Positions 15,623 through 50,239 of a stretch of 64,000 nt of DNA are shown one piece after another. The number at the start of each line of letters is the position of its first letter. The first letter of the stretch is position 1. Both the position numbers and the translations under genes were made by a program. The DNA is taken from contig NZ_SMSE01000001.1 of the NCBI RefSeq assembly GCF_004354085.1, positions 295,335 to 359,334 of the forward strand, given 5' to 3'. The notes below the pieces were generated by a model. The model made no database searches. It had not been told where the DNA came from and saw only the letters and a list, made by a program, of their open reading frames with translations. This DNA is from Seongchinamella unica (GTDB lineage Bacteria > Pseudomonadota > Gammaproteobacteria > Pseudomonadales > Halieaceae).

Positions 15623-16209
15623 ATGACCCTCGACGTCGGCCGTAGAAAAGGGCATATGGTCGGCCTGCCTCGAGCCGACCCGGCCTGCGCCACGTGCGAT
15701 CGCACTGCTGTATGCGGAAATGAAAGTCTGCAGGGAGGGGATCAGTCGATGGGTAATCCGGGGATCGGTGCCGGGAATTTGCACCCAGCCCTGCGCCGCT
15801 GCCAGGACTCCGCGCATGGCATCTATGCGGCTGACAATGCCGGCGGCGTCCAGCGGTATCAGGTCGACAACCTTTAGTACTTTATTGGTCTCGCGCAGAC
15901 GACTGCTGTCGAAACGGTAGGATACCAGGCTGTCCGCCGTGACCTGCCAGTCCAACGCGCCGCGAAAGACCTCGCGATTGGTATCCATGAAGTCCAGTTC
16001 ACCCGACACCGTGTTGTCGTAGAAACCGTCGCACTCCCGGTTCTGGTAGCCAAAACTGGCAGTCAGGGAGCGCAGTGGGCCCGACACATCGCCGCAGGTC
16101 GGCGTATCGACGTTGCTCTTGATTTCCTGCTGGGCATACTTGCCCAGGATCCCCGAGACCTTCGTGCCCAGTTCGCCACTGAGTGGACGGGTAATGATAT
16201 TCAGCGCTC
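15594..16209 (-). pseudogene. TonB-dependent receptor fragment (plug end and first strands)
   Basis: About 205 residues in one frame without a stop align to residues roughly 165-370 of the intact receptor at 36574-39138. Matching stretches include ALNIITRPLSGELG against ALSIVTKAPTGEFG, DPRITHRLIPSLQ against DPRITQRLIPSLE, and SRQADHMPFSTADVEGHS against SAQADHMPITDTVGDGHS. Both ends are missing: no signal peptide or TonB box and no barrel C-terminus. The left edge abuts the truncated MaoC gene at about 15595. The lack of stops suggests the deletion is recent or the fragment is short enough to escape them. Confidence 0.9.
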
Positions 16210-16800: not shown

Positions 16801-17280
16801 TCAGCGTTCCAGCGCGGGATCGTCGGTACGCGGCACCCGGATGGCATAAAAGCCCGCTCCGGGTAGCGCATTGATACGATGCCTCAGAATCTGGGCGGGC
16901 TCGAGATCCTCTGTGTAGGTATAGACAGGCCGCCCGCGGTAGGCCCACTGGCCACACCCTGGGGTTGGGATTGCTGTCTTCGTAAGTCAGCCCCAAGGGG
17001 CATGGTAGACGGGATGTGGAATCTCGACGATGCTCCACTCGCCGGAAGCACGAGCCCGAGATCCCGCGCAGCGGCTCCCGCCCCTGATAAACGGCCTGCC
17101 CCTGGTAACTGTATTGGTGAATCCCCCTGCTGTGCCAGGTTTCCGTGCAACCCACCATCCGCGCCATCTGATTGTCCACGGCGATACCTTCCGCGTTGAA
17201 GAACTTTTGATGGCCACAGGAATTCTCAGTGGCCCTGCCGTCTCGGTACCGTCAAGGAGAGAGCCCCCAGGCACAGGTCA
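16801..17280 (-). pseudogene. Chimeric relic: 365-residue secreted protein joined to repeat protein tail
   Basis: Reading leftwards, the first part matches the secreted protein at 35126-36223: LDGTET then, after a frame change, ENSCGHQKFFNAEGIAVDN and QMARMVGCTETW (intact: NSCRHEKF, TAVDNQLARVVGCTASW). It then becomes the C-terminal part of the Lipoprotein_15 protein at 30661-31962: HQYSYQGQAVYQG, EWSIVEIPHPVYHAP and, after another frame change, AYRGRPVYTYTEDLEPA and LPGAGFYAIRVP (intact: AYRGRPVYTFVDDDEPA, LPGSGFFAIQ). Two genes have thus been fused by deletion and hit by at least two frameshifts. It is not expected to make a functional protein. Confidence 0.85.
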
Positions 17281-17302
17281 AAGGACCGAAACCTAAGCTT
17301 AC

Positions 17303-17408: not shown

Positions 17409-18461
17409 ATGAGCAACGATCACTTTGAAATCTCGGTACAGTACCTCGCGCCTATCCTGAACGAACTGGAAAAACGCGGCTATACGCTGCGGGAAGTCTT
17501 CGCGTATGCAGGCCTGCAGCTGCCTGCCAACTGCGACAACCCGGGCAGTGTGGTTCTCCCGGTGCTAGACTTCTCGACTCTCTATGGCCGAGCCCTCGCC
17601 CTGCTGGAAGTCGAGACCAGCGAAAGACTGGATAAACGCCCCTCCGACAAAGGGCGACTTGAAGTCATGTGTTGCGTCGCCATCGCCTGCCCCGACCTGA
17701 GAAATGCCGCCCGGCAGCTTTCCACGCTCAGCCGCTTCAGCCATCCCCAGGACATCACCATTCATCTGGAAGAGAGGGAGGATAGCGCGCGACTCATTCT
17801 TGACTTTCATCGCAGCTCGCAAGACACCGCATCCCTGCTGGTTGCGGCAGCCTCGCTGATATTCCTGCACCAGATTTTTTCCTGGGTGATTGGCAGCCGC
17901 ATCAGGCTGCGTGAGCTGCACCTCAAGTCACCCGAACCGAAGGAGTCCATCAGCTTGCTGGACTTGCTCGACGCACCGGTTATCTACGAGCATGACTGCG
18001 ACGCGATGGTTTTTGACGCCGACATCCTGGACTGGCCAGTGATCCGCACCTACGCGGACCTGCAGAAGATCATCGATTACATACCCTTCGACATTTGGTA
18101 CAGCGGCGGCGTCGACCTGCCCATGGCCGGCAGGATCCGAAACATGTTTGTCTCCGCCTTGCACGATAACCTGCCGATCCCTTCGACGTCCTCTCTCTGT
18201 CAGATCTTTCATGTCAGCGAAGCCACACTGCGCCGCAGGCTGCGCGACGAGAACAGCAGCTACTCGTCAATCCGGGAAGAGAGCCAAAAGAAGTTCGCCG
18301 AGTATATGCTGCGTTGCACCGATGAGCCGATCAGCGATATTGCACTGCGGGCGGGCTTCGGCGACGACCGGGCATTCCGCCGGGCCTTCCAGCGCTGGCT
18401 GGATATCAGTCCATCCCGCTACCGGGCCACGAACTCCGTCGAGAGCCCCGACAAATCCTGA
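17409..18461 (+). CDS. AraC-family transcriptional regulator
   Basis: A 350-residue regulator with a large N-terminal ligand-sensing domain (Arabinose_bd type, as in OruR/ArgR-like activators) and a C-terminal AraC DNA-binding domain. The first helix-turn-helix includes SLCQIFHVSEATLRRRLRD near residue 265, the second DIALRAGFGDDRAFRRAFQR near 320, ending in the conserved SPSRYR. It is an intact gene in a field of relics, so it may have governed the decayed cluster or may still act on the related cluster at 28-39 kb. The ribosome site is weak. Confidence 0.9.
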   Translation: MSNDHFEISVQYLAPILNELEKRGYTLREVFAYAGLQLPANCDNPGSVVLPVLDFSTLYGRALALLEVETSERLDKRPSDKGRLEVMCCVAIACPDLRNAARQLSTLSRFSHPQDITIHLEEREDSARLILDFHRSSQDTASLLVAAASLIFLHQIFSWVIGSRIRLRELHLKSPEPKESISLLDLLDAPVIYEHDCDAMVFDADILDWPVIRTYADLQKIIDYIPFDIWYSGGVDLPMAGRIRNMFVSALHDNLPIPSTSSLCQIFHVSEATLRRRLRDENSSYSSIREESQKKFAEYMLRCTDEPISDIALRAGFGDDRAFRRAFQRWLDISPSRYRATNSVESPDKS

Positions 18462-18479
18462 GGGCCTCCCGGATTTCTG

Positions 18480-18655
18480 TCAGGGTGTCCAATTGGGATA
18501 CGCGCGCCTAAAACGCTTCTTATTGGGCATGACCACAGTCGGCAGGGTAGCGGCATTGGCTTCGAATTCCACCGGCACCATCCCGTTACGGTAAAGCAAA
18601 TAGGCAGGCAATGCATGGACCTCGCTGTCACCCAGTGACTGTGGCTGCGTGTCGA
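18480..18655 (-). pseudogene. SoxD-like cytochrome c, C-terminal relic
   Basis: The last ~58 residues of a homologue of the cytochrome at 28351-28905, in one frame with a normal stop: QPQSLGDSEVHALPAYLLYR against HPQSLDDNEVYALTAYLLYR, then FEANAATLPTVVMPN against FEANASALPKVVMPN and RAYPNWTP against RAYPDWNP. The CxxCH haem motif and signal peptide are absent. The upstream edge abuts a VOC-family relic. This is the fourth piece of the 28-39 kb cluster found in the decayed zone. Confidence 0.88.
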
Positions 18656-28350: not shown

Positions 28351-28905
28351 TCAGGGATTCCAATCAGGGTATGCGCGGATGAAATATTCTTGATTGGGCA
28401 TGACCACCTTGGGCAGGGCCGAAGCGTTGGCTTCAAAATGGGCGGGAACAACACCATTACGGTATAACAGATAGGCGGTCAACGCATACACCTCGTTGTC
28501 GTCAAGTGACTGCGGATGCGAATAGGGCATGGCTCGACGGATATAATCAAACAGCGTGGTTGCATAAGGCCAGTAATTTCCCACCGTTCGCTTCCCTCCC
28601 GTCTCGCCGAAGGGACGTGGCTCATCGCTCACCAGCACATTGTTCAGCCCGCCTACCCCGCCTTCGCCATGACAGGCAACACAATGCTCCAGATATAACC
28701 GAGCACCCGTCTCCGTGGTCCCGCTGCCCTGTGGCAAACCGTCGCCCGACGGCAATATGGTCATGTCCCAGGCCGCGACAAGCTCCCCTGAGGCTACCTT
28801 GCCCAACTGCGGGCTCAAAGGCGCCGCGGGCGAGAGATTCTGTGCGTGTGCTGCGCTCGCAGATAGCATCAGCACCATTGATAAACGTAACGCGAACCTA
28901 GACAT
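28351..28905 (-). CDS. soxD: SoxD-like cytochrome c
   Basis: A secreted c-type cytochrome of about 184 residues: signal peptide ending in SAAHAQ, haem motif CVACH near residue 80, and the axial Met likely in RRAMPYSHPQSL near 135, followed by DDNEVYALTAYLLYRNG and VVMPN, typical of the SoxD cytochrome domain and related SorB-type subunits. The start lies inside the soxC stop region (ATGTCTAG overlap), so the two are co-translated. Together with SoxC it should take electrons from a sulphite- or sulphane-type substrate. The usual longer SoxD with two haems is not present. Last gene of the cluster; a relic of a paralogue lies at 18480-18655. Confidence 0.85.
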   Translation of the reverse strand: MSRFALRLSMVLMLSASAAHAQNLSPAAPLSPQLGKVASGELVAAWDMTILPSGDGLPQGSGTTETGARLYLEHCVACHGEGGVGGLNNVLVSDEPRPFGETGGKRTVGNYWPYATTLFDYIRRAMPYSHPQSLDDNEVYALTAYLLYRNGVVPAHFEANASALPKVVMPNQEYFIRAYPDWNP

Positions 28906-30178
28906 AAACATTCCTGACATCACCGTTCTGAAGTATTTGCCAGCTCTGAATCGCATTGTAGTGGTAAACGGCATTGCGGCCCCGCTCTGCCAGCCACGCC
29001 TCTCTCGACGGCTGTACGGCTCCAGTCTCGTCGATGGCCCGGCTCTGCAGCACTGCCGGCCCACCGCTCCAGTTCCAGCCCATACGAAAACGTGTCATCG
29101 CCTTGGGCAACACAGGGGAATCGAGTGCAGCTTCTGACCAGGTCGCACCACCATCGGCGCTCACTTCTACGCGTTGAATCCTGCCGCTTCCCGACCACGC
29201 CAGCCCAGTGATCTGATAGATGCCCTTATCACGCAATGCCATTCCAGCAGAAGGCGAGGTAATAACGGATTTCACACCCATGGGGAAAGTAAACAGCAAA
29301 GATTTTCCGTCCGGGCGCACATCAGAATATTTGGAGGTTTCATCCTTGGTCATTGCCGGCTCGCTCACGACCTTGAGACGGCGCAGCCACTTGACCGACA
29401 TATTCCCTTCCCAGCCAGGGAGCAAAAGACGCATCGGATAGCCATTCTCTGGACGCAGGCGCTCCCCGTTCTGGTACAGGGCCAGTAGCCCATCGTCCAT
29501 GATTTTTTCCAGGGGAATACTCCGGCTCATCAATGCTGCGTCGGCGCCCTCGGCAATGACCCAGTGCGCAGCAGGGTCGACACCGGCTTCCTCGAACAGT
29601 GATGATAGGGGGATGCCGGCCCAGTTGGCGCAGGAGACCAGGCCGTGCAATTCGCCAACCGAGGCTTGCACGGGGTTTTCGGCGAGCAATGCAGCACTGT
29701 TTCCGGAACACTCGATGAACAGCATCTTCGATACCATGGGGTATCTACCCAGGTTGTCCAGATCAAAGGTCAACGGCCTTTTCACCATACCGTGTATCAG
29801 GAGTTGGTGCCGTTTGGGATCAATCTCTGGCACACCGTTGTGGTGGCGCTCGAAGTGCAGGGAATTGGGCGTAATCATACCTTCCAACGACTGCAGTGGC
29901 GTACGGGATGCCCCCGATCCCACCGTTCCGGGCTGAGATACCACGTTACGCTGCACATCCGCTTCATGGTGCGAGCGGTCGCCGTAGGGCGACATCCCGG
30001 CCCCTGGCTCTCTCGTCCACTCGGGAACCAGGTCGGGGGCAGACCGATCTTCAGCGCTGACGCCTGCCGCGAGAAAGGGTATCGAAGCAATCGCCGCGCC
30101 ACCCTTCAGAAAGACTCTCCGGTGCAGCAGACCATTGGTATTGGGCAGCTCCAGAGCTTTGGCTTCATTATCGCGCAT
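28898..30178 (-). CDS. soxC: SoxC-like molybdopterin oxidoreductase (sulfane/sulfite dehydrogenase)
   Basis: About 426 residues with a twin-arginine signal (HRRVFLKGGAAIASIPFLA). The sulphite-oxidase fold shows the Mo-binding Cys in VSCANWAGIPLSSLFEEAG near residue 195, preceded by MLFIECSGNSAALLAEN, and SoxC marks such as LALYQNGERLRPENGYPMRL, LLPGWEGNMSVKWLRRLKV and GLAWSGSGRIQRVEVSADGG. In thiosulphate oxidisers SoxCD acts with SoxYZ, SoxXA and SoxB; none of these is in the window, so the real substrate is open (sulphite is the simplest guess). The ATG at 30178 precedes the Tat signal best. It is coupled to the cytochrome downstream. Confidence 0.9.
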   Translation of the reverse strand: MRDNEAKALELPNTNGLLHRRVFLKGGAAIASIPFLAAGVSAEDRSAPDLVPEWTREPGAGMSPYGDRSHHEADVQRNVVSQPGTVGSGASRTPLQSLEGMITPNSLHFERHHNGVPEIDPKRHQLLIHGMVKRPLTFDLDNLGRYPMVSKMLFIECSGNSAALLAENPVQASVGELHGLVSCANWAGIPLSSLFEEAGVDPAAHWVIAEGADAALMSRSIPLEKIMDDGLLALYQNGERLRPENGYPMRLLLPGWEGNMSVKWLRRLKVVSEPAMTKDETSKYSDVRPDGKSLLFTFPMGVKSVITSPSAGMALRDKGIYQITGLAWSGSGRIQRVEVSADGGATWSEAALDSPVLPKAMTRFRMGWNWSGGPAVLQSRAIDETGAVQPSREAWLAERGRNAVYHYNAIQSWQILQNGDVRNVYV

Positions 30179-30192
30179 TATTTGGCACCAGT

Positions 30193-30268
30193 TCATTCGG
30201 GACAAACATCGAGAAGAATACCGTCGGGATCCCTGATCGAGAGACAGTCATCTACTGCGTACTCCCCT
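30193..30268 (-). pseudogene. Possible VOC/glyoxalase C-terminal remnant
   Basis: About 24 codons read EYAVDDCLSIRDPDGILLDV then CPE and a stop, resembling the closing xxDPDGxxxEx strand of VOC-family proteins. The frame is closed just upstream and the piece runs into the soxC start. It is short, so a chance match cannot be excluded. A VOC fragment also adjoins the SoxD relic at 18660. Confidence 0.35.
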
Positions 30269-30344
30269 CTTCAAACGGGGACACGGCTCTGCTTCTAGCC
30301 CTGAGGACCTGCAGGCCACCTAATCGCTTGGGAAAAACGACTTC

Positions 30345-30635
30345 TTACTTCTCACCCCAGGATTCACACACACTGGTGGCATACACCGGACCCTCGTTGA
30401 GCAGCTCGCAGCTGCCACAATTTGAGGTTGTGGTGTCAGCAGTAAAGAACGCGCAATCCCTGCACTGACGCTCGCCTTCGGCATCCACCTGAAACCCGAC
30501 CACATCGCGCATCCTGCGCTGGCTGCGCGACAAGGATTTCAAGCTATCACAGGCCCCTTCCGCTCGGGCGCGATGCAAAGCCAACAGTGGAACCATGCCC
30601 GCCAGCAAGCCGACAACATAACGTCTTGTGATCAT
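30345..30635 (-). CDS. High-potential iron-sulphur protein (HiPIP)
   Basis: A 96-residue periplasmic electron carrier. An N-terminal RR-containing signal (TRRYVVGLLAGMVPLLAL) is followed by four Cys in the HiPIP pattern: CRDCAFF, NCGSC and SVCESW. The 4Fe-4S cluster cycles between +2 and +3 and usually donates to reaction centres or terminal oxidases. Its place between the repeat protein and SoxC suggests it carries electrons from this cluster's enzymes to the respiratory chain, perhaps through the cytochromes encoded at 39-40.5 kb. The final GEK is unremarkable. Confidence 0.88.
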   Translation of the reverse strand: MITRRYVVGLLAGMVPLLALHRARAEGACDSLKSLSRSQRRMRDVVGFQVDAEGERQCRDCAFFTADTTTSNCGSCELLNEGPVYATSVCESWGEK

Positions 30636-30660
30636 CGTGCATTACCTCTCATCCGCTGCG

Positions 30661-31962
30661 CTAGCGCGATAGCGTTTTCTCGTGGTTACCGGCTGCCTGT
30701 ATGGCAAAAAATCCTGAGCCTGGCAGCGCTGTCATCTCGTGGCCCAACACCAAAGCGGGCTCATCGTCATCTACAAAGGTATAAACTGGCCGGCCGCGGT
30801 AGGCCCAAACGGATACCACGGGATTGTTGTTATCCTCCGCATAGGTAAAGCCACGGGGATCGGTATAAACCGGAGAAGGAACCTCCATCACAGACCACTC
30901 GCCAATCGAGACCGAACCCGCCTCCGCCACATAGGGCTGCCAGCGCTGCACACATAAATCAGGCGTTCCACAGATAATCGCCCAATGAGCTGCAGCGTCA
31001 CCTGGGTCGTCACACGGTACCGATTCAGGCCCTTCCTGACAGCTGAAAACATACAGGGCCATGCCGTCCTGCGTCGTGTATATATCGGCGATCAGACTGA
31101 AGCGCGTTTCAATGGCGGCAGGAAGTGGCAGCGCTTTTTCGAAATAGACCGCATCCCAGCCTTCGATTGGCTCAGGGTCGGGGCCAGTGACCGCATCCGG
31201 GCCAACAAAGATGGGCTGATCGCGAAACGCATACTGACGAAAGCCACCAGCACCTTCAATTACGCTCCACTCACCCACCTGTTTGACCAGCGCGCCCGCC
31301 GCAAGCGGCTCCAGGCCTTTGCCGCATTCCACGCAGGGCTCTGAATCCGCCGCGCGTGGGGTGTACAGTGCGCGACCATTGAGCACAAGTGCGAGACCCT
31401 CCCTGAGCCGCAGCAACTCGACACCCGGCGGCATATCCAGTGGCGCCATCGCCAGCTGCCACCCACCATAACTACGCTCGATAACATTGACGCCGTTCGC
31501 GTCACCCGCCTTGCGGTCTTTGATCGAACGATGCATCGGGCGGCCTTCGTAAGCCCACTGGCGAGAATTGTCGTGCCGCTCAACAATGGTCCATTTGCCC
31601 TCGGGCCTGGCATCGTCAGCGGCGTGGAACGGCGGCCACTTATCCTCGCAGGTCTTGCGCACATCAGGGTGCGGGAGATACACCGTCTGGCCGGTCACAT
31701 GTTTGTAACTCGATTCACGATTATTATTGCACTGGGGGCTACCCGGTGTCGTCTCATCGCGAAGCCACCAATACAGCGTTCCCCCACCCGGCGCAGCGAG
31801 CACCGGGCCAAAAGCCGTCATCTCAATTAACGCGGGACCATCCGTCAACGAAGCCTCCTCGCTGCCAAAGGATGAGACACCAAGACAACTGGCCAGAACA
31901 CCAAAAACACTAGTGATGGACCTGAAAATTGCCCGGCGGCGCACAGCAACGTTTCTTAACAT
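30661..31962 (-). CDS. Multi-repeat Lipoprotein_15/COG4315-type secreted protein
   Basis: A 433-residue exported protein: hydrophobic signal near residues 13-33, then repeated units of the form GGTLYWW / C....C / DKWPPF / GKWTIVERHDNSRQWAYEGR, recurring near residues 65, 190 and 300, with the last WAYRGRPVYTF unit near 395. The family is of unknown function; its name reflects lipoprotein members, but this protein has no obvious lipobox. It sits 25 bp upstream of HiPIP. A single-unit relative is at 16425-16787 and the C-terminus of a lost paralogue at 16801. A binding or scaffolding role in the periplasm is a guess. Confidence 0.75.
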   Translation of the reverse strand: MLRNVAVRRRAIFRSITSVFGVLASCLGVSSFGSEEASLTDGPALIEMTAFGPVLAAPGGGTLYWWLRDETTPGSPQCNNNRESSYKHVTGQTVYLPHPDVRKTCEDKWPPFHAADDARPEGKWTIVERHDNSRQWAYEGRPMHRSIKDRKAGDANGVNVIERSYGGWQLAMAPLDMPPGVELLRLREGLALVLNGRALYTPRAADSEPCVECGKGLEPLAAGALVKQVGEWSVIEGAGGFRQYAFRDQPIFVGPDAVTGPDPEPIEGWDAVYFEKALPLPAAIETRFSLIADIYTTQDGMALYVFSCQEGPESVPCDDPGDAAAHWAIICGTPDLCVQRWQPYVAEAGSVSIGEWSVMEVPSPVYTDPRGFTYAEDNNNPVVSVWAYRGRPVYTFVDDDEPALVLGHEMTALPGSGFFAIQAAGNHEKTLSR

Positions 31963-32062
31963 CTATAACCCACCTTCATTGAGAATTGAGCGCCTGCCAC
32001 ACAAGAACAAACAACTGACTCTGGACCTCCGGCTCGGGCATTCGTAATGCACGTGGCGCCAT

Positions 32063-33412
32063 TCAAACCAACATTTCGTTAATCGGGCTCGAGGTGCGTA
32101 GTGAACCCTGCCCCCAGTCCGCCAGCGGCACACCGAACAAACGCTGGATCGTATAACCCAGACGCGTGCCGGCGTCCCCCTCCCCATCAATGTGCAGGCC
32201 CGTCTTGACCAGACCATTGAGTCGACCTGCCGTAAACATGGGGATGCCGTCCAGTGAGTGAGTTTTGGCAAAACGACAGTCCGAATGCCCGTAAACCAGC
32301 GTGTTATCCAGCAGCGAGCCGTCACCTTCCGGCATGTTCGCCAGAGAACCGACGAAATAAGCCCACTCTTCCATCGAGCGTTGCACAAACCAGGACGACT
32401 GTGGCTGCAATCCGGTATCGGGGTCGACGCCCTCTTCGTGGGTCAGAATATGATGAGTCCGTTCCGAGCCCGCTCGCGTGGCCGCAGAGAAGCTATCAAA
32501 ACATACCATGTTAAAGACGCGGCTCTGATTACAGGCTAACGCCATCACCAACATATCCGTCATCAGGCGGTGCCGCTCAACAACGAGCTCGACATCAAGA
32601 CCTTTCGCCAACTCCGTTGGTTCATCAGGCACTGCACAATGGGGAGCAGGAGCAGGTTTTTGCAACTGCAACTCAAGACGTGTTTCAAGCTCCCGAATCG
32701 AAGTCAGGTAGTAATCGAGTCGCTGCCGGTCTGCCTGTCCCAGAGCTCCCTCAACCTGCTTGATTTCATCAACCACACCCGAGAGCACGCTCTTGCGCAA
32801 CATGATTCGGGGATCTGGGGTGAACGTGTCTGAGTTCGGGTCCTGAAATTCTGGACCAAATATCTTTTTGTAGAACTCCAGCGGTGATATTTCCGGCGGG
32901 TTGATGGCGTCGGCACTACGGAAACTGTAACTGTCCCGAGGTACCCCCGTCGCCGCCAACTCCAGCGACCGAAAGCGGGTCCCGCCGCTGATCATGTCAG
33001 CAATCGGAATATCCAGACTCTGCCCGGGCAGATCTCCGCGTGCCGCGGGCACGATACCCGAGCGAAGTGCGACCCAACCCGTGTAATGACACAGATTGGG
33101 CTTGCCGTCCGTCGACACGTTGAAATTGGTATACACGTTGACATGCTTGCGCAATTCGCCGAGCGGCGAAAGTTGCCGGGTTAAGTCATATCCCGCGCCG
33201 ACCGTACGCGGCACAAATATCGCCTCATCAACACCCAGACCCCAAAACCAGGTGCCGAAACGTGATGGTAATGGAGCATTGGAAGCAAACGCAGTGCCGT
33301 TAGTATTCAGGAATACGTCCAGTAGTGGCAGACCAACGGCTACGGCACCACCCTTGAGCATGCCTTTAAGAACTTGCCGCCGCTGCAGCTTCTTGTGCTT
33401 ATGAAACATCAC
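32063..33412 (-). CDS. DUF1552 family protein with export signal
   Basis: A 449-residue protein of the DUF1552 group. Its N-terminus (LQRRQVLKGMLKGGAVAVGL) is a twin-arginine-type signal, so it is probably folded before export, perhaps with a cofactor. Family-like stretches include PSRFGTWFWGLGV near residue 50, ADRQRLDYYLTSIRELETRL near 225 and LDNTLVYGHSDCRFAKTHS near 375, reminiscent of the sulphatase/DUF1501-like alkaline phosphatase fold. DUF1552 genes typically follow DUF1592 genes, as here with adjacent stop and GTG start. No enzymatic role has been established for the family to my knowledge. Confidence 0.85.
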   Translation of the reverse strand: MMFHKHKKLQRRQVLKGMLKGGAVAVGLPLLDVFLNTNGTAFASNAPLPSRFGTWFWGLGVDEAIFVPRTVGAGYDLTRQLSPLGELRKHVNVYTNFNVSTDGKPNLCHYTGWVALRSGIVPAARGDLPGQSLDIPIADMISGGTRFRSLELAATGVPRDSYSFRSADAINPPEISPLEFYKKIFGPEFQDPNSDTFTPDPRIMLRKSVLSGVVDEIKQVEGALGQADRQRLDYYLTSIRELETRLELQLQKPAPAPHCAVPDEPTELAKGLDVELVVERHRLMTDMLVMALACNQSRVFNMVCFDSFSAATRAGSERTHHILTHEEGVDPDTGLQPQSSWFVQRSMEEWAYFVGSLANMPEGDGSLLDNTLVYGHSDCRFAKTHSLDGIPMFTAGRLNGLVKTGLHIDGEGDAGTRLGYTIQRLFGVPLADWGQGSLRTSSPINEMLV

Positions 33413-35113
33413 TCAATCCTCGTGCTGATAGGCTAGTTTGGCGGTGCTGGCTGTCAGCTCCGGTGTCAAGGTGACGCCGAAGAATGCATCGCTCAAGGTA
33501 ACGGCACGCAATACGTCTTTCCAGCGGTACCCTTCGACATCGAGCCGATCAAGAAGCGGATCAATAACTTCCGCCTCTTCACCGTCCAATAGCGGGCGCC
33601 CGATAGCCGCGGTATACACTCGCTGGACAAGACACGCTGTCAGTGCCGGGTTATCCCGCACCGCCGAACCCAGCTCCACAGCCGTTTCAAAATCCACCCT
33701 GTCCAAGGTGCCCGCGGGATCAATCAAGAACCCTTTTTCCGTTTTGCGAAATTGGCCGGCACCGTCGAAATTCTCCAAACCCAGGCCTATCGGGTCGGTA
33801 ATCGCGTGGCAACCCCGGCAGGTCCGATCGGTGTTATGCACATCCAGACGCTCGCGGGCGGTAGGCAATCCATCGGCATCCTCCAGCGCCGAAAAATCGA
33901 CATTTGGCGGCGCATCAGGAACATGTTGGCACAGCATGATTTCACGCAACGCCTTGCCTCGGCGGGTAGGAGAACTACGACCGGGGTGTGCGTGCTGGGC
34001 AAGAAAGCCTACCTGGGTGAGGAAGCCACCCCGCTCATCGTCTACCGCAAGCTCATAAGGCACCCATTCGGAGGGCCTGGCACTGACGGGGAAACCGTAT
34101 ACAGCAGCCAAGTTCGCTGTAAGCATCGTATGGCGCGTCGTGAACAGATCGCGGTAATCCTCGTCTCTTTGGATGAGGTGATCGAGTATCAGCTGCAACT
34201 GTTGTTCGCGGGCATCCACAAGCACTTTGGAATTGAATGCCGGGAAAATTGTCTCGTCCTTAGTCAGGTTATCGTAGCCCTCCAAGATGAGAAAGTCGTT
34301 GAAGAAGCTGCGCACACCATCCCTCAGTCGTCGCGAGGCCAACATTCGCTCTACCTGCTTTTGCAGCCCGGCGTCGGTGTGCAGAACCCCCGACTCGGCC
34401 GCATCAATCAGTTCGGTATCTGGGCCCGAAGCCCACAGCATCAGGCTCAGACGGGAAGCCTTGGAGTGGGCATCGAGACGCCAGCCTCCGGGACGCTGAG
34501 GGTCAGACTCAAGATGCTCCTGTATAAATAGAAAGTTAGGCGACAGCAACATACCAACCAACGCCAACTCAAGGCCATCGTAAAAGTCTCCCGCTGGACC
34601 AACGCTGCCGCCCGCCAGCTCCACAAGCGAATGCAGCTCCGTTTTGGTCAGCGCACGTCGATACAGTAGACGGCCCGCACTACCAATAAACTGGCTGGCA
34701 CAGGCATCGTTGCGGACATCCGTGGCAACGGGCTGACAGGGAATGGTAAATTGCCGATTCTCCGGAGCAACGACCTGCTCCGCAACCAGGTGCGCCGCGC
34801 GATCCAGTGAATCCAGAGCGCCCGACGTTACAATGGCCTGCCCGGCACCGAGCGCCATCATGCCCTCCATTCGACGCAAAGGCGCAAAGCGGACGTTCAG
34901 CTCCATCTGCGGACCGAATATGGCTCTGACCGTATTCAAGTACTGCGGCTGACTGATCAGCCGCATTGTGGGCTGCATTTCACTCATCTCGCCGTCAGCT
35001 AAGGCAGCACCCGCTACGGCCATTGCCGAACCCAGCCAACACAGCATGGAGCAGGCAAGTACGCGTGATAAACCCTTTGCTACCGCCACCGTATTATCAC
35101 CCATGTACTTCAT
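33413..35113 (-). CDS. DUF1592/DUF1588/DUF1585 family haem-binding protein
   Basis: A 566-residue secreted protein with the domain series common in Planctomycetes and some Proteobacteria: a DUF1587/1595-like start (SQPQYLNTVRAIFG near residue 52), DUF1592 (ALVGMLLSPNFLFIQEHLE near 185), DUF1588 with a single haem motif in NTDRTCRGCHAITDPIGLGL near 432, and a DUF1585 C-terminus (YRWKDVLRAVTLSDAFFGV). The CRGCH motif makes it a c-type haem protein. The signal peptide is near residues 15-38. It is paired with DUF1552, and presumably an electron-transfer or oxidative enzyme at the outer membrane or in the periplasm; function unknown. Confidence 0.85.
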   Translation of the reverse strand: MKYMGDNTVAVAKGLSRVLACSMLCWLGSAMAVAGAALADGEMSEMQPTMRLISQPQYLNTVRAIFGPQMELNVRFAPLRRMEGMMALGAGQAIVTSGALDSLDRAAHLVAEQVVAPENRQFTIPCQPVATDVRNDACASQFIGSAGRLLYRRALTKTELHSLVELAGGSVGPAGDFYDGLELALVGMLLSPNFLFIQEHLESDPQRPGGWRLDAHSKASRLSLMLWASGPDTELIDAAESGVLHTDAGLQKQVERMLASRRLRDGVRSFFNDFLILEGYDNLTKDETIFPAFNSKVLVDAREQQLQLILDHLIQRDEDYRDLFTTRHTMLTANLAAVYGFPVSARPSEWVPYELAVDDERGGFLTQVGFLAQHAHPGRSSPTRRGKALREIMLCQHVPDAPPNVDFSALEDADGLPTARERLDVHNTDRTCRGCHAITDPIGLGLENFDGAGQFRKTEKGFLIDPAGTLDRVDFETAVELGSAVRDNPALTACLVQRVYTAAIGRPLLDGEEAEVIDPLLDRLDVEGYRWKDVLRAVTLSDAFFGVTLTPELTASTAKLAYQHED

Positions 35114-35125
35114 TATTACCTGCCC

Positions 35126-36223
35126 TCATCGAGACGCTGTCTCTGAGTTGTTGTGCATTCGTGCATCATCACTTCCGGGGTGTGCAATCAAAGCGCGTAC
35201 TGCGTTGATTTGATAGGCCGCCGAAATCGCAGTGCATTGACCGCTTTCGGGATCCGGGTACCCATCCGCATATCGATGAGCCGCCCGGTAATACCAGGCA
35301 TTACTGTGTGGCCCAACGCTGGCCGCGGCACCTCCCATGCCACGACTGTGGGCGCTCCACCAGATCTTGAGATCTTCATAGCCACCGAGGATGCCTTCGG
35401 CCCCGTTCTTGGTCAGGGTCAGGCGTAAACGCATGTCGCGAACAAGACGCTCCGCGGGCGTTGTTATCCAGTAGATTGGAAACCACGCTTCCTGAATGGG
35501 CTCTGTGGTCAAAACACCGTCAGTGATGCTTCCTTTGGTTTCGTACATGTATCGGGTGTAACGCTCGTCAATACGCTGATTCTGAAAAGGAGGGATGGTG
35601 CCGCCGGCGCCCAGGGACAGGCCATCCAGGCCCTTGTAAATATGCACCATCACCTCAGAATCATTCTCTTCGCTGTCAACACCACTGATCTCGATCAGAA
35701 TGCGATTGAGCGGGAAGTTAACAATTTCCTGTTTGAAAAACTCACTCGCAAACCCACCCGTGCGCCAGGATGCTGTGCAACCCACGACACGCGCCAATTG
35801 ATTATCAACTGCCGTACCCTCTGGCCCCTCGAACTTCTCGTGTCGGCAGCTGTTATTGGTGGCCTCACCGGTCTGAGTGCCGTCCAGATTGAGCCCATAG
35901 CCAATTCGGGTTTGCAATTCCGGAGAGGGCAGTAGATCCTCGCTCAACAGCGGCATATAGGCCGAATGCTCGCCATTGGGGCCACGATTTGTAAAGTAGC
36001 CGAACGTTTCACGAAGCTCTTGTGAGTTTTCCATCGCTTGGTGCTGAGCCATCTCACCCTGGGTCAAGCCGGCGGGACATTCCTCTTTGCCACCAGGCGT
36101 TTCATACAATGCGTGGCGCCATTCAGTTATCACGAGGCCAATCGTTTCACCACTCGCTTGCTGCGCAGCGACTGGGGAGAGGAGCGTGACCAGGCAGACA
36201 AGAGCCGCACAACTTCTATTCAT
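35126..36223 (-). CDS. Secreted protein of unknown function, 365 residues
   Basis: Begins with a clear signal peptide (CAALVCLVTLLSPVAAQQ). Recognisable features of the mature part: ALYETPGGKEECPAGLTQGE near residue 40, FTNRGPNGEH near 77, LDGTQTGEATNNSC near 113, DNQLARVVGCTASW near 138, PIYWITTPAERLVRDMRLRL near 249 and WWSAHSRGMGG near 288. Several Cys could form disulphides. I recognise no catalytic motif or fold. It precedes the DUF1592 gene by 12 bp. A frameshifted fragment of a paralogue at 16801-17280 confirms that it belongs to a repeated gene set. It is a good candidate for a novel enzyme or binding protein. Confidence 0.8.
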   Translation of the reverse strand: MNRSCAALVCLVTLLSPVAAQQASGETIGLVITEWRHALYETPGGKEECPAGLTQGEMAQHQAMENSQELRETFGYFTNRGPNGEHSAYMPLLSEDLLPSPELQTRIGYGLNLDGTQTGEATNNSCRHEKFEGPEGTAVDNQLARVVGCTASWRTGGFASEFFKQEIVNFPLNRILIEISGVDSEENDSEVMVHIYKGLDGLSLGAGGTIPPFQNQRIDERYTRYMYETKGSITDGVLTTEPIQEAWFPIYWITTPAERLVRDMRLRLTLTKNGAEGILGGYEDLKIWWSAHSRGMGGAAASVGPHSNAWYYRAAHRYADGYPDPESGQCTAISAAYQINAVRALIAHPGSDDARMHNNSETASR

Positions 36224-36573
36224 GGAGAAAAACCGCCTTCTGTTGTTATGTTGAATTAATCTTCATCCACACTGGAAGAAAAGCAGATAGATTCCTCATC
36301 GCGTAACTTAGTGCTCAGCAAGAACTGAATTCGTTGATTTTATTGAAGCTTTTTTAGCTGCGACAGGACTAAAGGCAGCGGGATCGGACTTTTACAATCA
36401 AATTCGAACCTATTAACAGAGTTTAATCGTCCGCCCAACAGTATTTGCTGCTGTTTGGCACTCTGTCTGCCCTCAACTCTGGCGGCAGGTCCTCGGCACG
36501 GGACTGCACCCGAGCCGACGACCATCTCTGCCAAACAATCCACCTGCCGTGGCATTCCAGCAAAAATGTGGGA
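36224..36573. other. 350-bp intergenic region between receptor and secreted protein
   Basis: No gene is supported. The region is AT-rich next to the 36223 start and contains the 16-bp element at 36385-36400. It probably carries a separate promoter for the 365-residue protein and the genes after it, since the gap is long for an operon. Confidence 0.5.
36385..36400. repeat. 16-bp element, copy 2
   Basis: CGGACTTTTACAATCA, 162 bp upstream of the 365-residue protein gene; a 15/16 match lies at 16313-16328 and a 13/16 match at 17303-17318. Possible regulatory site for the redox cluster. Confidence 0.4.
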
Positions 36574-39138
36574 TCAGAACGTATAGCTAAGCTCTACCGC
36601 ATACGTGCGCGGATCCCCGTATTGTTGCGAGATCAGTCCAAGCGCCCCCAGATTGAGGCCGTACAGCGGATAATCTTCATCGGTCAGGTTTTTACCCGTC
36701 AAGGCAACAGACATCACCCCGCCACCAACAGGAATCTCTTCCAGGCTGAGCCTGGCGTTGACTAACGTACGCTCATCCATGACCTGATGCGGATATATCC
36801 ACGGCTGCCCGCTTAAGGTGCCGCCCCAGATGGCGTTCTCATACCACTCATCCTGCCAGTTCACCTGCATATAGCCGCGCAATTCACCTCTCGAGAAACG
36901 GTGGAAGATATAATCTGCCGTCACGCTGAGCGCGTTATCCGGTGAACCTGATCGCTTGGCAAAATTCACACCAGGAAGGCAGTTTGTCGGATCCGTGTTG
37001 GAGCAGATATCCGGGAATTCATCGAAGTCTCCATTGATGTAAGCGTACGAAACACTCACCATGAGATCGTCCAGTGGAATCGCCGTCACTTCAATTTCGC
37101 TGCCCCAGCGCTCGGCCTGACCGCCGTTACCAAGGCCCGACAGGGCTCGACCATCTGGCGTAACGGTAATCTGGGAAATCTGCCCATCTTTCCAGTCATA
37201 GGTCCAGAGCGAAGCATTTACCCGCATGCGACGTTCAAACCAGTCACTCTTCAGGCCGATTTCATACTGCTCTACCGTTTCTTCATCGAAGTTGCCGTCA
37301 AACACCCCGGGGTTGAACCCGCCTGACTTGTAACCCGTGGAATACTTCGCGAAGCCGTTAACGGTGTCAGTAAACTCGTAGGCCAGCGTTAGCGCACCAC
37401 TGAGATTGTAGAAGTTCTCTTCTTTGGAGAAGGATTCCTCGGGGTTGACCCTGAACACAGTTACCTGCTCGCCGCGGAATTGGTCCAGGGTCTTTTCCTC
37501 TTCGGTATAGCGCAGGCCGGCCGTCACCGAAAACCGCTCATCCATCCACCCGGGCGTGAACTTCATTTGGCCAAAAATCGCCTTGGCAAGCGTTGTGCTG
37601 TTCGATCGGGTTTCTCTACCTGCACCGGAGAGGGGGGCAAGATAAATGGCGGCGGAATCGGTTTCGTCCGCTGCCTCCTTTTCCTCGTCGTCAAAATAAT
37701 ACAAGCCAACCACGTATTCTGTGCGCTCGGTGGTGCCAACAAACTGAATTTCTTGGGAGAATTGCCGGTACTCGGTATAATTTCTGGGAAGCGTCCTATC
37801 ACCCAGTATGGCGTGGAACGCACCGATCTCATCCACTGCATCCCACACATTGCTAACCAGCGGATACGCGAACCCCCCCGAACCACCGTACAACTGCCCG
37901 AACGTCGCCAGCAAGGTGTCGTTCATTATCCCCACGCCATTGGCATCAAGACGACTATCAATGTTCTCGATATCGCCGACAGTATTGGTCAGGAGTTTGC
38001 GGTAGGCGGTAATCGATTTAAATTCAACCTCACCGAGAAAGCCTAGCGTACCGAGGTCAGTAGAAAAGGTGACCGAGTGGCCATCGCCCACGGTATCGGT
38101 TATTGGCATGTGGTCAGCCTGCGCACTACTTACCCTACCCTCGCCGACCTCGAGAATCTCCTGATAGGCAGCGATCGTCTTTTCCAACGAGGGAATCAGG
38201 CGCTGCGTGATACGCGGGTCAGTCCCCGGCGTCGCTGCCCAGCCCCTCGCCGCTCCCAAAACGCCTTGCATGCCCTGGATACGGGTAATCCCCGAAGCCG
38301 TCAACGGCGTGAAGTCGACGACTTTATCGACATTATTGGTATCGCCAACTCTGCCCTTGTCATAACGGTACGCGAACAGGGTATCTTCACTCAGGCGCCA
38401 GTCTGCCGAAACATGGTAGGACTCACGGTTGATGTCCATGAAAGCGGGCTCACCTGGTACCGAGTTTTCATAAAAACCATCGCGGCTACGCGTCTGGTAA
38501 CCGAAACTGGCGGCCAATTCGCCCAGAGGACTGGAAACATCTCCCAGCGTAGGGGTATTCATATTGACCCGAAGATCTCGTTGATCGTATCGACCCACTG
38601 TGCCCATAACCTTGCCGCCAAATTCCCCGGTTGGCGCCTTGGTAACAATACTGAGCGCGCCGCCAGGTGAGTTGCGGCCAAACAGCGTTCCTTGCGGCCC
38701 GGGCAAAATTTCCATTTGCTGCAGATCAGCAACATCAAATGCCGCGGAGCGTTGACGGCCCAGGTATACGCCATCCACATAAATACCAACGGCGGCTGAC
38801 ACGGCGCCGTTCAGCGCGGCGCCACCCGACAAGCCCCGTATGTTGAGCGTTGTTGCGCCTCTTGCTCCCGGAGACTCAAAGCCCGAGACTCCGGCCAACT
38901 CCGCGATGAGATCGGTGGGACCGCTAATACCGCGTTTCAGGATGTCGTCGCTCGTGAGTGCCGTGATAGTGACGGCGGTATCCTGCAGGTTGGTCTCCCG
39001 CCGCTCTGCGGTGACTATTGTTTCTTCGAGCACTCGAATTCCAGCATTTTCCTGAGCTTGTGTCTGGCTGGCACCGACGAGCACTAAAGTTGCGGCCAGA
39101 ACTGAGGTGGAAATCAAGGAACGCCGTAAATGAATCAT
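36574..39138 (-). CDS. TonB-dependent outer-membrane receptor
   Basis: An 854-residue receptor. Signal peptide to about residue 28 (ASQTQA), TonB-box-like ETIVTAERRETNLQD near 38, plug domain with VYVDGVYLGRQRSAAFDVA-type motif and GPQGTLFGRNSPGGALSIV near 150, then a 22-strand barrel ending YAVELSYTF with the terminal Phe needed for outer-membrane insertion. The family (often called CirA/FecA-like in Sphingomonads and Halieaceae) imports bulky or scarce compounds, not only iron. Being the head of the SoxCD/DUF1592 cluster, it likely brings in that system's substrate. A 205-residue slice of a paralogue survives at 15594-16209. Confidence 0.93.
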   Translation of the reverse strand: MIHLRRSLISTSVLAATLVLVGASQTQAQENAGIRVLEETIVTAERRETNLQDTAVTITALTSDDILKRGISGPTDLIAELAGVSGFESPGARGATTLNIRGLSGGAALNGAVSAAVGIYVDGVYLGRQRSAAFDVADLQQMEILPGPQGTLFGRNSPGGALSIVTKAPTGEFGGKVMGTVGRYDQRDLRVNMNTPTLGDVSSPLGELAASFGYQTRSRDGFYENSVPGEPAFMDINRESYHVSADWRLSEDTLFAYRYDKGRVGDTNNVDKVVDFTPLTASGITRIQGMQGVLGAARGWAATPGTDPRITQRLIPSLEKTIAAYQEILEVGEGRVSSAQADHMPITDTVGDGHSVTFSTDLGTLGFLGEVEFKSITAYRKLLTNTVGDIENIDSRLDANGVGIMNDTLLATFGQLYGGSGGFAYPLVSNVWDAVDEIGAFHAILGDRTLPRNYTEYRQFSQEIQFVGTTERTEYVVGLYYFDDEEKEAADETDSAAIYLAPLSGAGRETRSNSTTLAKAIFGQMKFTPGWMDERFSVTAGLRYTEEEKTLDQFRGEQVTVFRVNPEESFSKEENFYNLSGALTLAYEFTDTVNGFAKYSTGYKSGGFNPGVFDGNFDEETVEQYEIGLKSDWFERRMRVNASLWTYDWKDGQISQITVTPDGRALSGLGNGGQAERWGSEIEVTAIPLDDLMVSVSYAYINGDFDEFPDICSNTDPTNCLPGVNFAKRSGSPDNALSVTADYIFHRFSRGELRGYMQVNWQDEWYENAIWGGTLSGQPWIYPHQVMDERTLVNARLSLEEIPVGGGVMSVALTGKNLTDEDYPLYGLNLGALGLISQQYGDPRTYAVELSYTF

Positions 39139-39324
39139 ATTGTCACCCTTATTATTTAAATGATTTAACCGTCTTACTTCGGGCTGGAATTCCTCGCAGA
39201 AATATTGCCAGTTATCCCCGGTAGAGCTTCATATCTGGTGAAAGCTACCTACCACCCCCGCCCCACGGTGAGCGTACTTTTGTACTGCGCGGACCTTTAA
39301 CCCCCGCGCCGTGTTGAAACGTTA

Positions 39325-40011
39325 TCAAAGTGGGATATCCAGCGACTGCAAATACCACACGAGAATACCAGCCAGCGCGACGCCCAAAACACTCCGCCAC
39401 AGCGGAGCAAACCACAGCTCAGTGGCCGATCCCGGCTGATCGTCGCGACCGGAAATCATGCGGACAATCAGGTTCTGGCCTCCCAGCAACCAATACAGCA
39501 TCACGGCAATAATGTGCACCGCCACAAAGAACAACAGCAGATTGAACACTCGCTCGTGCCATAGCGCCGCAAAACGACCGGCTTCAAAGCTCACGTAGAA
39601 TGACAGTGGACCGGCTTCCATACCGTCTACGTCGACAGCTAACAGGCCAAGGCACACCTGTGCCAGCAACAAGAAAAGCAGAACGGTACTGCTCAGGGCT
39701 CCCAGCGGGTTGTGCCCCGCGGGGGCAGGTTGCCGCGCTCGCCGGCGCAGTTCACGCGTGTAAGCCAGAGTGCTGGCCGGGCCACGCAAAAAATGCTTGA
39801 AGCGCGCCGTGGTGCTTCCGAACACACCCCAATAGAGTCGAAAAACCAGTACGCCTGCCATGACGTAGCCCATGTAGCGATGCCATTGCATCTCCCCGTT
39901 CTCAGCGGTCCACCTGCTGCCGCAAAACAACAATAACAATAACCAGTGACCGCACCGGGTCGGCAAGTCCCAGACCTTGCGGCGCTGGAAAACGTGTGCC
40001 CCGGTCATCAA
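39325..40011 (-). CDS. Cytochrome b561-type membrane protein
   Basis: A 228-residue di-haem cytochrome b of the bacterial b561 / Ni-hydrogenase b-subunit type with four membrane segments. Candidate haem ligands: RCGHWLL near residue 20, MQWHRYMGY near 42, ALWHERVFNLLLFFVAVHII near 150. It would pass electrons between the quinone pool and periplasmic cytochromes. The start overlaps the stop of the cytochrome c' gene (ATGA), so the two likely form a complex, as in many b561/c' gene pairs. It lies 186 bp upstream of the TonB receptor in the same direction. Confidence 0.88.
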   Translation of the reverse strand: MMTGAHVFQRRKVWDLPTRCGHWLLLLLFCGSRWTAENGEMQWHRYMGYVMAGVLVFRLYWGVFGSTTARFKHFLRGPASTLAYTRELRRRARQPAPAGHNPLGALSSTVLLFLLLAQVCLGLLAVDVDGMEAGPLSFYVSFEAGRFAALWHERVFNLLLFFVAVHIIAVMLYWLLGGQNLIVRMISGRDDQPGSATELWFAPLWRSVLGVALAGILVWYLQSLDIPL

Positions 40012-40517
40012 TCCTCTTCCTCACGAAAAGTGTCATGGCAGCCTGAACAGGTATCTCCCATCTCTCGCACGCGCTCGCGGGTAGCCTCCAGATCACCCGA
40101 GACTACGGCGCTCTGGAGATTTTCTGCGGCCAGAATATAGTCCTCCCAGCGCGCGGCAAACTCATCCGGCCGTTCCCAGATAACCGGTAACGCTTCCGTC
40201 TCAATTCCCTCGCCAGGGCCGGTACCTTGAGGAAACCAGTTTTCGATCACCGGCTCTCTTGAATAGCGTAACAAGGGCCTGGAGTATTCCCGGATCATGA
40301 CCATTACGGGCCTGGAGCGGCGAAATTGGTCGCGTACGCCCTTGAAAGCCGCCCCCATATCCTTGAAGCCCTGCTGCCGCATTTCAACGGTCACCATCGG
40401 GTCGGCGCTCTGCGCCGAAACAGCAGGTGAAAGCAGCACTGCAATCGCTATAGTAATCAGGTGATAACGAGCCAAGTCTGCTCTCCTTCGTACAGAAAAA
40501 TACATGCCTGCGCTCAT
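40008..40517 (-). CDS. Class II cytochrome c (cytochrome c'-like)
   Basis: A 169-residue secreted cytochrome. Signal peptide ends near residue 36 (PAVSAQS); the mature part is helical and ends with the haem motif MGDTCSGCHDTFREEE, the C-terminal CxxCH position typical of cytochrome c' four-helix bundles. Its first codon overlaps the stop of the upstream NTF2-like gene (ATGA) and its stop overlaps the b561 gene. Likely the soluble electron partner of that membrane cytochrome. Confidence 0.88.
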   Translation of the reverse strand: MSAGMYFSVRRRADLARYHLITIAIAVLLSPAVSAQSADPMVTVEMRQQGFKDMGAAFKGVRDQFRRSRPVMVMIREYSRPLLRYSREPVIENWFPQGTGPGEGIETEALPVIWERPDEFAARWEDYILAAENLQSAVVSGDLEATRERVREMGDTCSGCHDTFREEED

Positions 40518-41035
40518 GGCTTGACCACCGGCGGTAACGCCAGAATGTCGCTGATACGGCCATTAGTAACGATAAAACGTTCGGCGACCCAGTGTGTTTC
40601 CTCAGGCGATGCTTTCAACTTTACCGTAAAAATCGCCCAAGCCGTGTCACCGTCTACCGCCCATTCTTGCTCAGTGGCTGATTCGATCAGATCGGACCGG
40701 CTGTCCTGTAAGAACTCGGTGCGACCGGTGGTTGCGTCGCCGCGCAACGTACCCAGGCTGCGCCGCTTAAAGTCGTCCGCAAGCGGTAACTGTGCGGCTG
40801 CAAGATCGCCACGCACCCATTGTAAATAGGTTCCTGCGACCGCAATGACACAGGCACGTCGCTCCCCCCCGGTGAGCGACGCGGTGGCACTGTCCGCCAG
40901 TCGTTGAGAGCAGGCTTTCCAATCCGCTTGTTCAGATGCCTGCAACACACCCGACGAAAAAAGCCCCGTGACGAACATGGCCACGGGCGCCGTCAAAAAA
41001 TAGGCGAAAATTGTAGATCGGGTGTTATTCACCAT
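40514..41035 (-). CDS. Exported NTF2/SnoaL-like protein
   Basis: About 173 residues. The ATG at 41035 is chosen because AGAGGTGG precedes it by six bases and it begins a membrane/signal segment (FAYFLTAPVAMFVTGLFSSG). The mature part resembles the cystatin-like NTF2/SnoaL fold: LQWVRGDLAAAQLPLADDFK near residue 75 and DGDTAWAIFTVKLKA, then HWVAERFIVTNGRI near 150. Function is unknown; such domains bind small hydrophobic ligands or catalyse simple chemistry. First gene of the unit with cytochrome c' and b561. Confidence 0.65.
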   Translation of the reverse strand: MVNNTRSTIFAYFLTAPVAMFVTGLFSSGVLQASEQADWKACSQRLADSATASLTGGERRACVIAVAGTYLQWVRGDLAAAQLPLADDFKRRSLGTLRGDATTGRTEFLQDSRSDLIESATEQEWAVDGDTAWAIFTVKLKASPEETHWVAERFIVTNGRISDILALPPVVKP

Positions 41036-41224
41036 GCGCACCACCTCTGCGAAGTACTTATTGTTGTATGCACCCCGGGATAGCGATCTCCCATTCACCT
41101 GATGCGTTGCACGACCCTCTGTTCTGTACAACAGGGGATCCACAGCATTCAGGGTAGTCTTTAAACGAGAAAGCTTGAAAGGACTCTACTCACTCACAAC
41201 CGGACAGTTCCGATCAATGTGGGC

Positions 41225-42879: not shown

Positions 42880-42932
42880 CGCGATACTCCCGTTCTAGTT
42901 GAGTTGCTGCAGCCTCATCATTGCCGGCTACT

Positions 42933-43787: not shown

Positions 43788-43847
43788 AGAGTATGCGTCC
43801 ACAAAATAGTCACGTTTTCTTTCACAAAATAGCGAGCTAACCCGACA

Positions 43848-44333: not shown

Positions 44334-44359
44334 TAACGTTCTCCGTAAAAGGTTTTTGC

Positions 44360-47802: not shown

Positions 47803-47811
47803 TGTAAGCCC

Positions 47812-50193: not shown

Positions 50194-50239
50194 GGGAAAT
50201 TCCTCAAGAGATGATTTATTGGATCGAACAGAATTCACC

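Follow-up and report, generated by a model that had tools for sequence, protein, structure and literature searches.

A conserved gene module of Unk365, a DUF1592-type cytochrome and DUF1552 in Seongchinamella unica and other Proteobacteria: a candidate periplasmic redox system

Introduction

In a stretch of 64,000 nucleotides from Seongchinamella unica (hereafter the window), eleven genes on the minus strand at about 28351-41143 encode a SoxC-SoxD pair, several electron carriers, a TonB-dependent receptor and further secreted proteins, which raises the question which of these genes belong together and what they may do. A preliminary description of this DNA had proposed a periplasmic redox system, in which a substrate enters through the receptor, SoxCD and the DUF1592 protein oxidise it and the electrons leave through HiPIP and the cytochromes; its eleven same-strand genes are real and mostly well named. 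The conserved unit, however, is a core made up of a secreted protein of 365 amino acids (named Unk365 here), a DUF1592-type c cytochrome, a DUF1552 protein and, in many lineages, a Lipoprotein_15 protein, and that this core is a real conserved system we regard as nearly certain. SoxCD is a neighbour of it in this lineage. In the order of transcription, the genes are (evidence in brackets):

40514..41143, minus strand: secreted protein with weak likeness to NTF2/SnoaL, ATG start likely near 41035 (SnoaL_2 at E 0.011, under the cut-off)
40008..40517, minus strand: cytochrome c', accessory (Pfam)
39325..40011, minus strand: cytochrome b561, accessory (Pfam)
36574..39138, minus strand: TonB-dependent receptor, accessory (Pfam)
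35126..36223, minus strand: Unk365, core, unnamed secreted family, 365 amino acids (no Pfam match; homologues; AlphaFold2 (AF2) model)
33413..35113, minus strand: planctomycete-type DUF1595/1592/1588/1585 cytochrome with CRGCH haem motif, core, 566 amino acids (Pfam)
32063..33412, minus strand: DUF1552 protein, core, Tat-type N-terminus, predicted alkaline-phosphatase/sulfatase fold (Pfam; AF2; Foldseek)
30661..31962, minus strand: Lipoprotein_15 repeat protein, possible lipobox LASC, core in many lineages but not all (Pfam, alignment)
30345..30635, minus strand: HiPIP electron carrier, accessory (Pfam)
28898..30205, minus strand: SoxC-type molybdopterin subunit, orphan sulphite-dehydrogenase type, lineage-specific neighbour (TIGR04555, tree)
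28351..29064, minus strand: SoxD-type monohaem cytochrome c, likely start near 28905-28911 (Pfam)

Conservation of the core

Among 145 genomes, that of S. unica included, Unk365 occurs in 28, DUF1552 (counted when above the Pfam cut-off) in 29 and a strong match of more than 80 bits to PSCyt3, one of the domains of the DUF1592-type cytochrome, in 28. Unk365 is accompanied by DUF1552 in 27 genomes, where about 5.5 would be expected (Fisher p 7e-26), and by strong PSCyt3 likewise in 27 (about 5.5 expected, p 5e-27), these p values ignoring shared ancestry. The exceptions are one genome with Unk365 alone (G113), one with the DUF1592-DUF1552 pair and no Unk365 (G081) and one, 75% complete, with DUF1552 alone (G140).

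Around the Unk365 places of relatives, 35 stretches were collected, 34 of which show Unk365 at the blastp limit; the DUF1592-DUF1552 pair lies near Unk365 in 22 of the 26 that extend 5.5 kb or more to each side. From a search among named genomes the best 80 of 143 stretches were taken, 47 of which had enough flank; at 44 of these 47 loci DUF1592, DUF1552 and Lipoprotein_15 are all in the Unk365 stretch, L134, L165 and L184 being without the DUF1592-DUF1552 pair. Four loci are common to both sets. Lipoprotein_15 was seen at all 47 named loci, at 8 of the 26 relatives' loci besides the pair and at none of four Sphingomonad plasmid loci, the rate at the named loci being biased upward because that search was seeded from Lipoprotein_15-bearing loci. 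The preliminary description had expected DUF1552, DUF1592, Lipoprotein_15 and SoxC to travel together: this holds strongly for DUF1552 and DUF1592, which Unk365 joins, in part of the loci for Lipoprotein_15, and not for SoxCD.

The Unk365 family is rare in a phylum sample (one of 397 other genomes, no more than four candidates having been scored in each), and the module is found in cultured, named bacteria, for example Sphingobium, Solimonas, Hydrocarboniphaga and Chromatocurvus. Chromatocurvus halotolerans DSM 23344 shows a single place each for Unk365 and DUF1552. At three loci (L149, L161, L194) the whole core module is present twice within one stretch, which suggests diversification through duplication.

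In the window, the open reading frames (ORFs) of the NTF2-like protein, cytochrome c' and b561 each overlap the next by 4 bases, the TonB receptor is flanked by gaps of 186 and 350 bases, Unk365 and the DUF1592 gene are spaced by 12 bases and the DUF1592 and DUF1552 genes by 0, and downstream of DUF1552 gaps of 100, 25 and 139 bases follow in turn up to SoxC. The cluster likely comprises several transcription blocks; scans of the window for promoters (7 found, 7.7 expected) and terminators (18 found, 14.7 expected) were at and near chance, respectively, and no tRNA was found in it. All core proteins carry export signals, as judged by eye.

Sequence and predicted structure of the core proteins

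The DUF1552 protein, which matches the HXXSHH family PF07586 with 153 bits (cut-off 30 bits), is predicted to adopt an alkaline-phosphatase/sulfatase fold that contains a His-rich site. Its AF2 model (pLDDT 83.8, pTM 0.82) gave 60 PDB matches in Foldseek at E<=0.001, the best 50 being sulfatases and their relatives (LtaS/LtaP, YejM/PbgA) and the best of all having an E of 7e-7 and a probability of 1.00. Members of the alkaline phosphatase superfamily, sulfatases among them, carry a metal-binding Asp pair after the first strand; while the predicted core fold is shared with them, this pair is absent from DUF1552 and WGLG stands in its place, each letter being kept in 55-58 of 58 alignment rows. 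Instead, a His-rich set (H109, H320, H321, H325, E326, E327, D369, H385, H407) is invariant in all 58 rows, D378 is kept in 55, and this set is probably a metal site.

In the DUF1592-type cytochrome the domains PSD5, PSD4, PSCyt3 and PSD2 follow each other, all four above their Pfam cut-offs, and the CxxCH residues C432, C435 and H436 are invariant in 47 rows; Pfam detected no carbohydrate-binding module (CBM) in its 566 residues. Unk365 has no Pfam match, and 37 members of its family gave scattered weak ones only (best E 0.024). Its AF2 model (pLDDT 89.1, pTM 0.86) is a mixed fold with many strands, for which the PDB holds no match at E<=0.001 (best 0.017), a result that does not amount to proof of a new fold. 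Searching by sequence for solved relatives yielded none for Unk365 and nothing convincing for DUF1552 (best E 0.13), the DUF1592 cytochrome (2.1) or Lipoprotein_15 (0.22). Homology between Unk365 and Lipoprotein_15, which had merged in one single-linkage cluster, was rejected, as profile comparison gives it no support.

Origin and spread of the module

The nearest relatives of the module are alphaproteobacterial and belong to Sphingobium quisquiliarum (L132), a metagenome-assembled genome (MAG) of the Caulobacteraceae (L133) and Sphingomonas solaris (L136). L132 shares 56% identity with the window in Unk365, 55% in DUF1592, 67% in DUF1552 and 40% in Lipoprotein_15; it consists of a TetR gene, a TonB receptor, HiPIP, the four core genes, c', b561 and then an SDR gene, has no SoxCD, and its TetR bears no detectable likeness to that of the window. 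In a DUF1552 tree (quick method, SH-aLRT) the window falls together with Sphingobium and two rows of Caulobacteraceae (support 98), the window branch being flagged as long. Neither Unk365 nor DUF1552 was found in any of seven genomes of the same genus. Since the nearest relatives are from Sphingobium and Caulobacteraceae, these sequence comparisons suggest that the module was acquired horizontally and moved between classes, in a direction that we infer.

Unk365 relatives were further found on thirteen plasmid records (12 of Sphingobium, one of Novosphingobium). Of the four plasmid loci viewed, L276, L277 and L279 hold Unk365, DUF1592, DUF1552, c' and b561, with HiPIP besides in L277; a TonB receptor and a gene of AraC type are present in L276, L279 and L280, with catabolic genes nearby. 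In L279 (6983-8328, Sphingobium herbicidovorans pMSHV) Unk365 appears split into two overlapping ORFs. A link of the plasmids of Tom strains to saponins was a guess and was set aside; the main text of the Sphingobium tomatine paper (PMC10653915) contains none of the terms 'cytochrome', 'TonB' and 'DUF'.

Electron carriers, receptors and other neighbours

The recurrent partners of the module are electron carriers: a multihaem cytochrome c, HiPIP and cytochrome c'/b561. In 43 of 115 pooled loci the module is contiguous with a cytochrome c of about 429 residues that has two or more Cytochrom_C stretches (one member scanned) and whose NCBIfam matches are all far below cut-off. HiPIP is contiguous with the module in 11 of them and adjoins it in L132 and L277; that of the window scores 25.1 bits against PF01355 (cut-off 22 bits) and has six Cys, the family test asking for at least four. 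Homologues of b561 stand beside the module in L132 (49%), L136 (44%) and four Sphingomonad plasmid loci (44-50%), and those of cytochrome c' in L132, L133, L136 and the same four. One TonB receptor family is contiguous with the module in 8 of the 115 loci. Receptors are present at part of the module loci (22-36% to the window receptor over aligned pieces), and since those near alphaproteobacterial copies align to it at 23-36%, in pieces, the imported compounds may differ. HiPIP, cytochrome c', b561 and TonB receptors, all counted to the system in the preliminary description, do recur at module loci but vary.

Pfam scans of further neighbours gave no common clue to the substrate. In 25 pooled loci (for example L033, 12710-13633) the module has a protein of the creatininase family (one member scanned) in its vicinity, on the opposite strand to the module in several loci viewed, and a family matching alpha-L-rhamnosidase (GH106; one member scanned) is contiguous with it in L050, L054, L060, L061 and L062, all of them from the family to which the window belongs.

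Relation to known systems

Literature searches in an open-access library turned up no study of what the module does. PMC5615132, on Verrucomicrobia, reports that PSCyt3 genes usually adjoin one family of unknown genes and that it is wholly unknown what PSCyt genes and the genes next to them do; we infer that this family is DUF1552, a name that appears in a count in a supplement legend and not in the main text of that paper. The planctomycete and verrucomicrobial PSCyt3/PSD genes share their domain families with the window cytochrome; unlike them, the pair in the window is tied to Unk365 and often to Lipoprotein_15, is accompanied by HiPIP, b561 and c', and occurs in Proteobacteria.

A second comparison is offered by pairs of PSCyt and DUF1501 genes, whose cytochromes are homologous to the DUF1592 family by profile comparison (probability 97.8) and which have DUF1501 in place of DUF1552; such pairs were present at all four places examined among the 15 genomes of relatives with weak PSCyt3 matches only. 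Homology between DUF1552 and DUF1501 was considered and not retained, there being no profile match in a small alignment with five DUF1501 rows. Long PSCyt cytochromes in relatives (L283, L284, L285, L286) are each paired with DUF1501, and some match PSCyt3/PSD4 and, weakly, PSD1 or PSCyt2, which hints that the named families are one superfamily.

Cbp2D and Cbp2E of Cellvibrio, involved in cellulose oxidation, are in the published passages on them likewise secreted and provided with c-type cytochrome domains, but are described by X-domains rather than DUF1592, a likeness by domain type. Other papers give a Cellvibrio CBM2 protein annotated as DUF1592 (PMC6004670), a DUF1552 gene in a table of an expression study (PMC2754498) and domain names of the module in tables (PMC7789669, PMC6004670).

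The SoxCD pair and a decayed second copy

SoxC of the window reaches 570 bits against the TIGR04555 equivalog (cut-off 420 bits), and its partner SoxD has one CxxCH in 237 residues, whereas Paracoccus-type SoxD is dihaem. We rejected membership in the Sox thiosulphate pathway, since neither SoxB nor SoxY turned up in the genome (soxX, soxA and soxZ were not searched); the SoxY search was positive in six of eight genomes, S. unica not being among them. No complete sox set elsewhere in the genome that groups with this SoxCD came to light. In a quick tree the window SoxC falls into a seven-row clade with a support of 99, two rows being the window itself and the three that were viewed among the five others showing SoxC with a monohaem cytochrome, and the sox-operon SoxC proteins of relatives stand elsewhere. 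Outside the S. unica genome, the best match to the window SoxC among 398 genomes of the phylum has 58% identity; Methylosinus plasmids encode a SoxC of 58%, paired with a cytochrome c in a stretch where no further sox gene is annotated. Among the 20 SoxC loci viewed, 16 have a one-haem partner, as in the window, three a two-haem partner (one locus has both) and two were unresolved.

SoxC was near the module at one of the 47 named loci, about 6 kb away and on the opposite strand, and at none of the 26 relatives' loci; it was above cut-off in none of 13 selected module-bearing genomes (picked from the best 80 loci, several being MAGs), seven of which gave weaker matches of the wider family, and it co-occurs with Unk365 at the level of chance (6 of 145 genomes, the own included, 5.6 expected, p 0.51). 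Because of these counts SoxCD was discarded as a general part of the module, and joint oxidation by SoxCD and the DUF1592 protein does not hold as a general mechanism.

The window holds a second, decayed copy of the module at 15.6-18.7 kb (15596-18650), with pieces of four of its genes around an intact AraC gene:

18483..18650, minus strand: SoxD remnant, C-terminal 56 residues, 68% (sequence comparison)
17409..18461, plus strand: AraC-type regulator, intact, between remnants (Pfam)
17090..17275, minus strand: Unk365 remnant, 44-45% against the intact copy and, over 42 residues, 60% against L133
16804..17109, minus strand: Lipoprotein_15 remnant (Lipoprotein_15 pieces of the decayed copy, 41-48%)
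16446-16814, plus strand: inverted Lipoprotein_15-like piece
15596..16207, minus strand: TonB receptor remnant, 54% to the receptor at 36574-39138

The AraC protein shares 31-32% with the plasmid AraC proteins and is divergent beside the Unk365 remnant, the same layout as in L276 and L279. Given the SoxD remnant, both module copies of this lineage have had SoxD tied to them, which leaves two readings: SoxCD is part of this version of the module, or a single stretch was duplicated as a whole. SoxD has only two places in the genome, both in the window and beside the only two Unk365-family places of the genome, and was found in none of the six same-genus genomes searched (of seven). As an orphan pair of the sulphite-dehydrogenase type, SoxCD is attached to the module version of this lineage and may belong to it; the link made in the preliminary description fails as a general one, and the remnant and the placement of SoxD favour a lineage-specific one.

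One dedicated system for organosulphur oxidation, made up of SoxCD and the DUF1592 protein as in the view of the preliminary description, is very unlikely: the SoxC ORF beginning 139 bases past HiPIP on the same strand, the SoxD remnant and the confinement of SoxD to the window speak for it, but the locus, genome and co-occurrence counts above, as well as orphan SoxC pairs that exist elsewhere without the module, speak against it. Alternatively, SoxCD may be an independent sulphite detoxification pair, incidentally adjacent to the module and acting with two genes nearby:

22877-23740: TauD-family dioxygenase, near the SoxCD genes
23778-24788: YeiH-type transporter, putative sulphate exporter, beside the TauD-family gene

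This we consider possible, with the odds somewhat against it. TauD-family genes adjoin SoxC pairs at three of the 20 SoxC loci and a YeiH-type gene at one, which also holds a sulfolactate-dehydrogenase-like gene (below cut-off), and the failure to find SoxB and SoxY fits as well; against it, the remnant locus ties SoxD to the module a second time, and the TauD (144 of 313 bits, taurine dioxygenase) and YeiH (139 of 233) proteins of the window are both under their NCBIfam cut-offs.

Proposed function of the module

We propose, with a probability of roughly 0.45, that the module may be a horizontally acquired redox system oxidising an organic compound imported by the TonB receptor; periplasmic oxidation of an organic substrate as its job is a tentative assignment, a little short of even odds. 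The receptor would bring the compound into the periplasm, where DUF1552, with its predicted alkaline-phosphatase fold and rebuilt His-rich, probably metal-binding site, would bind or transform it and the DUF1592 cytochrome would take the electrons, Unk365 and Lipoprotein_15 serving as structural or electron-path partners. The electrons would leave to the respiratory chain via whichever carrier the host supplies, presumably the multihaem cytochrome c in many gammaproteobacteria and HiPIP with c'/b561 in this and the Sphingomonad-type clusters. Both the electron direction and the catalytic role of DUF1552 are assumptions of this proposal. The periplasmic redox system of the preliminary description is in this way upheld in part, by a core conserved with electron carriers, and loses SoxCD as its general oxidising part. 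A bolder version is doubtful: a new class of periplasmic oxidoreductases, in which an alkaline-phosphatase-fold DUF1552 would have been recruited to redox chemistry via its His-rich metal site and wired to a planctomycete-type cytochrome and a new-fold Unk365, with interchangeable carriers and a spread that links Sphingomonads with marine Gammaproteobacteria and runs in part via catabolic plasmids.

Several observations weigh against the proposed oxidation of an imported compound. The TM-scores of DUF1552 to sulfatases are low (0.28-0.51 in the best 50) with a high root-mean-square deviation, Lipoprotein_15 is not seen at most relatives' loci nor at the plasmid loci, and the plasmid locus L280 has no recognisable Unk365 while keeping DUF1592, DUF1552, c' and b561. 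TonB receptors like the two of the window are near only 6 (and one of the other type) of 47 and 5 (and one) of 26 loci, and gene content does not fix the direction of the electrons.

Alternatively, the module could be a periplasmic oxygenase- or peroxidase-like system, in which b561/c' or other carriers move quinol electrons to the DUF1592 cytochrome and to the metal site of DUF1552, where O2 or H2O2 would be activated against a hydrophobic substrate. The recurrence of the c'/b561 pair in Sphingomonad-type clusters, the invariant His-rich set and catabolic oxygenase genes near the pMSHV copy agree with this, but many gammaproteobacterial copies have the multihaem cytochrome c instead and no oxygenase fold was among the structure matches of DUF1552 and Unk365, so that we hold it to be unlikely. 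Distinctly unlikely is a DUF1552 that is a true hydrolase of the phosphatase or sulfatase type, its cytochrome being regulatory or involved in maturation and the module stripping a blocking group off an imported compound: WGLG replaces the usual Asp pair, and to our knowledge no known sulfatase needs an obligate haem partner. In favour of such a hydrolase are the Foldseek matches, the rhamnosidase-type family adjoining some copies and the frequent neighbourhood of PSCyt genes and sulfatases in Verrucomicrobia, reported in PMC5615132.

Other features of the window

At 26076-26549 a second TauD-family gene lies in fragments and has apparently decayed. A same-strand run at 41764-50292 encodes a histone-deacetylase-like protein, a PhyH-like dioxygenase (named from sequence), a RidA-type protein, an FAD oxidoreductase, a PQQ-propeller protein with a weak haem domain and a second TonB receptor, and may be another catabolic cluster.

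Conclusions

DUF1552 and DUF1592-type genes, to which no role has been assigned, are now placed in a compact, recurrent setting of three or four core genes and their carriers, to which the present analysis adds a new protein family, Unk365, and for DUF1552 a predicted fold and a candidate metal site. Setting the SoxCD neighbour apart avoids a misleading assignment to thiosulphate oxidation. As the module is compact and present in cultured bacteria, its role is directly testable by knock-out and purification.

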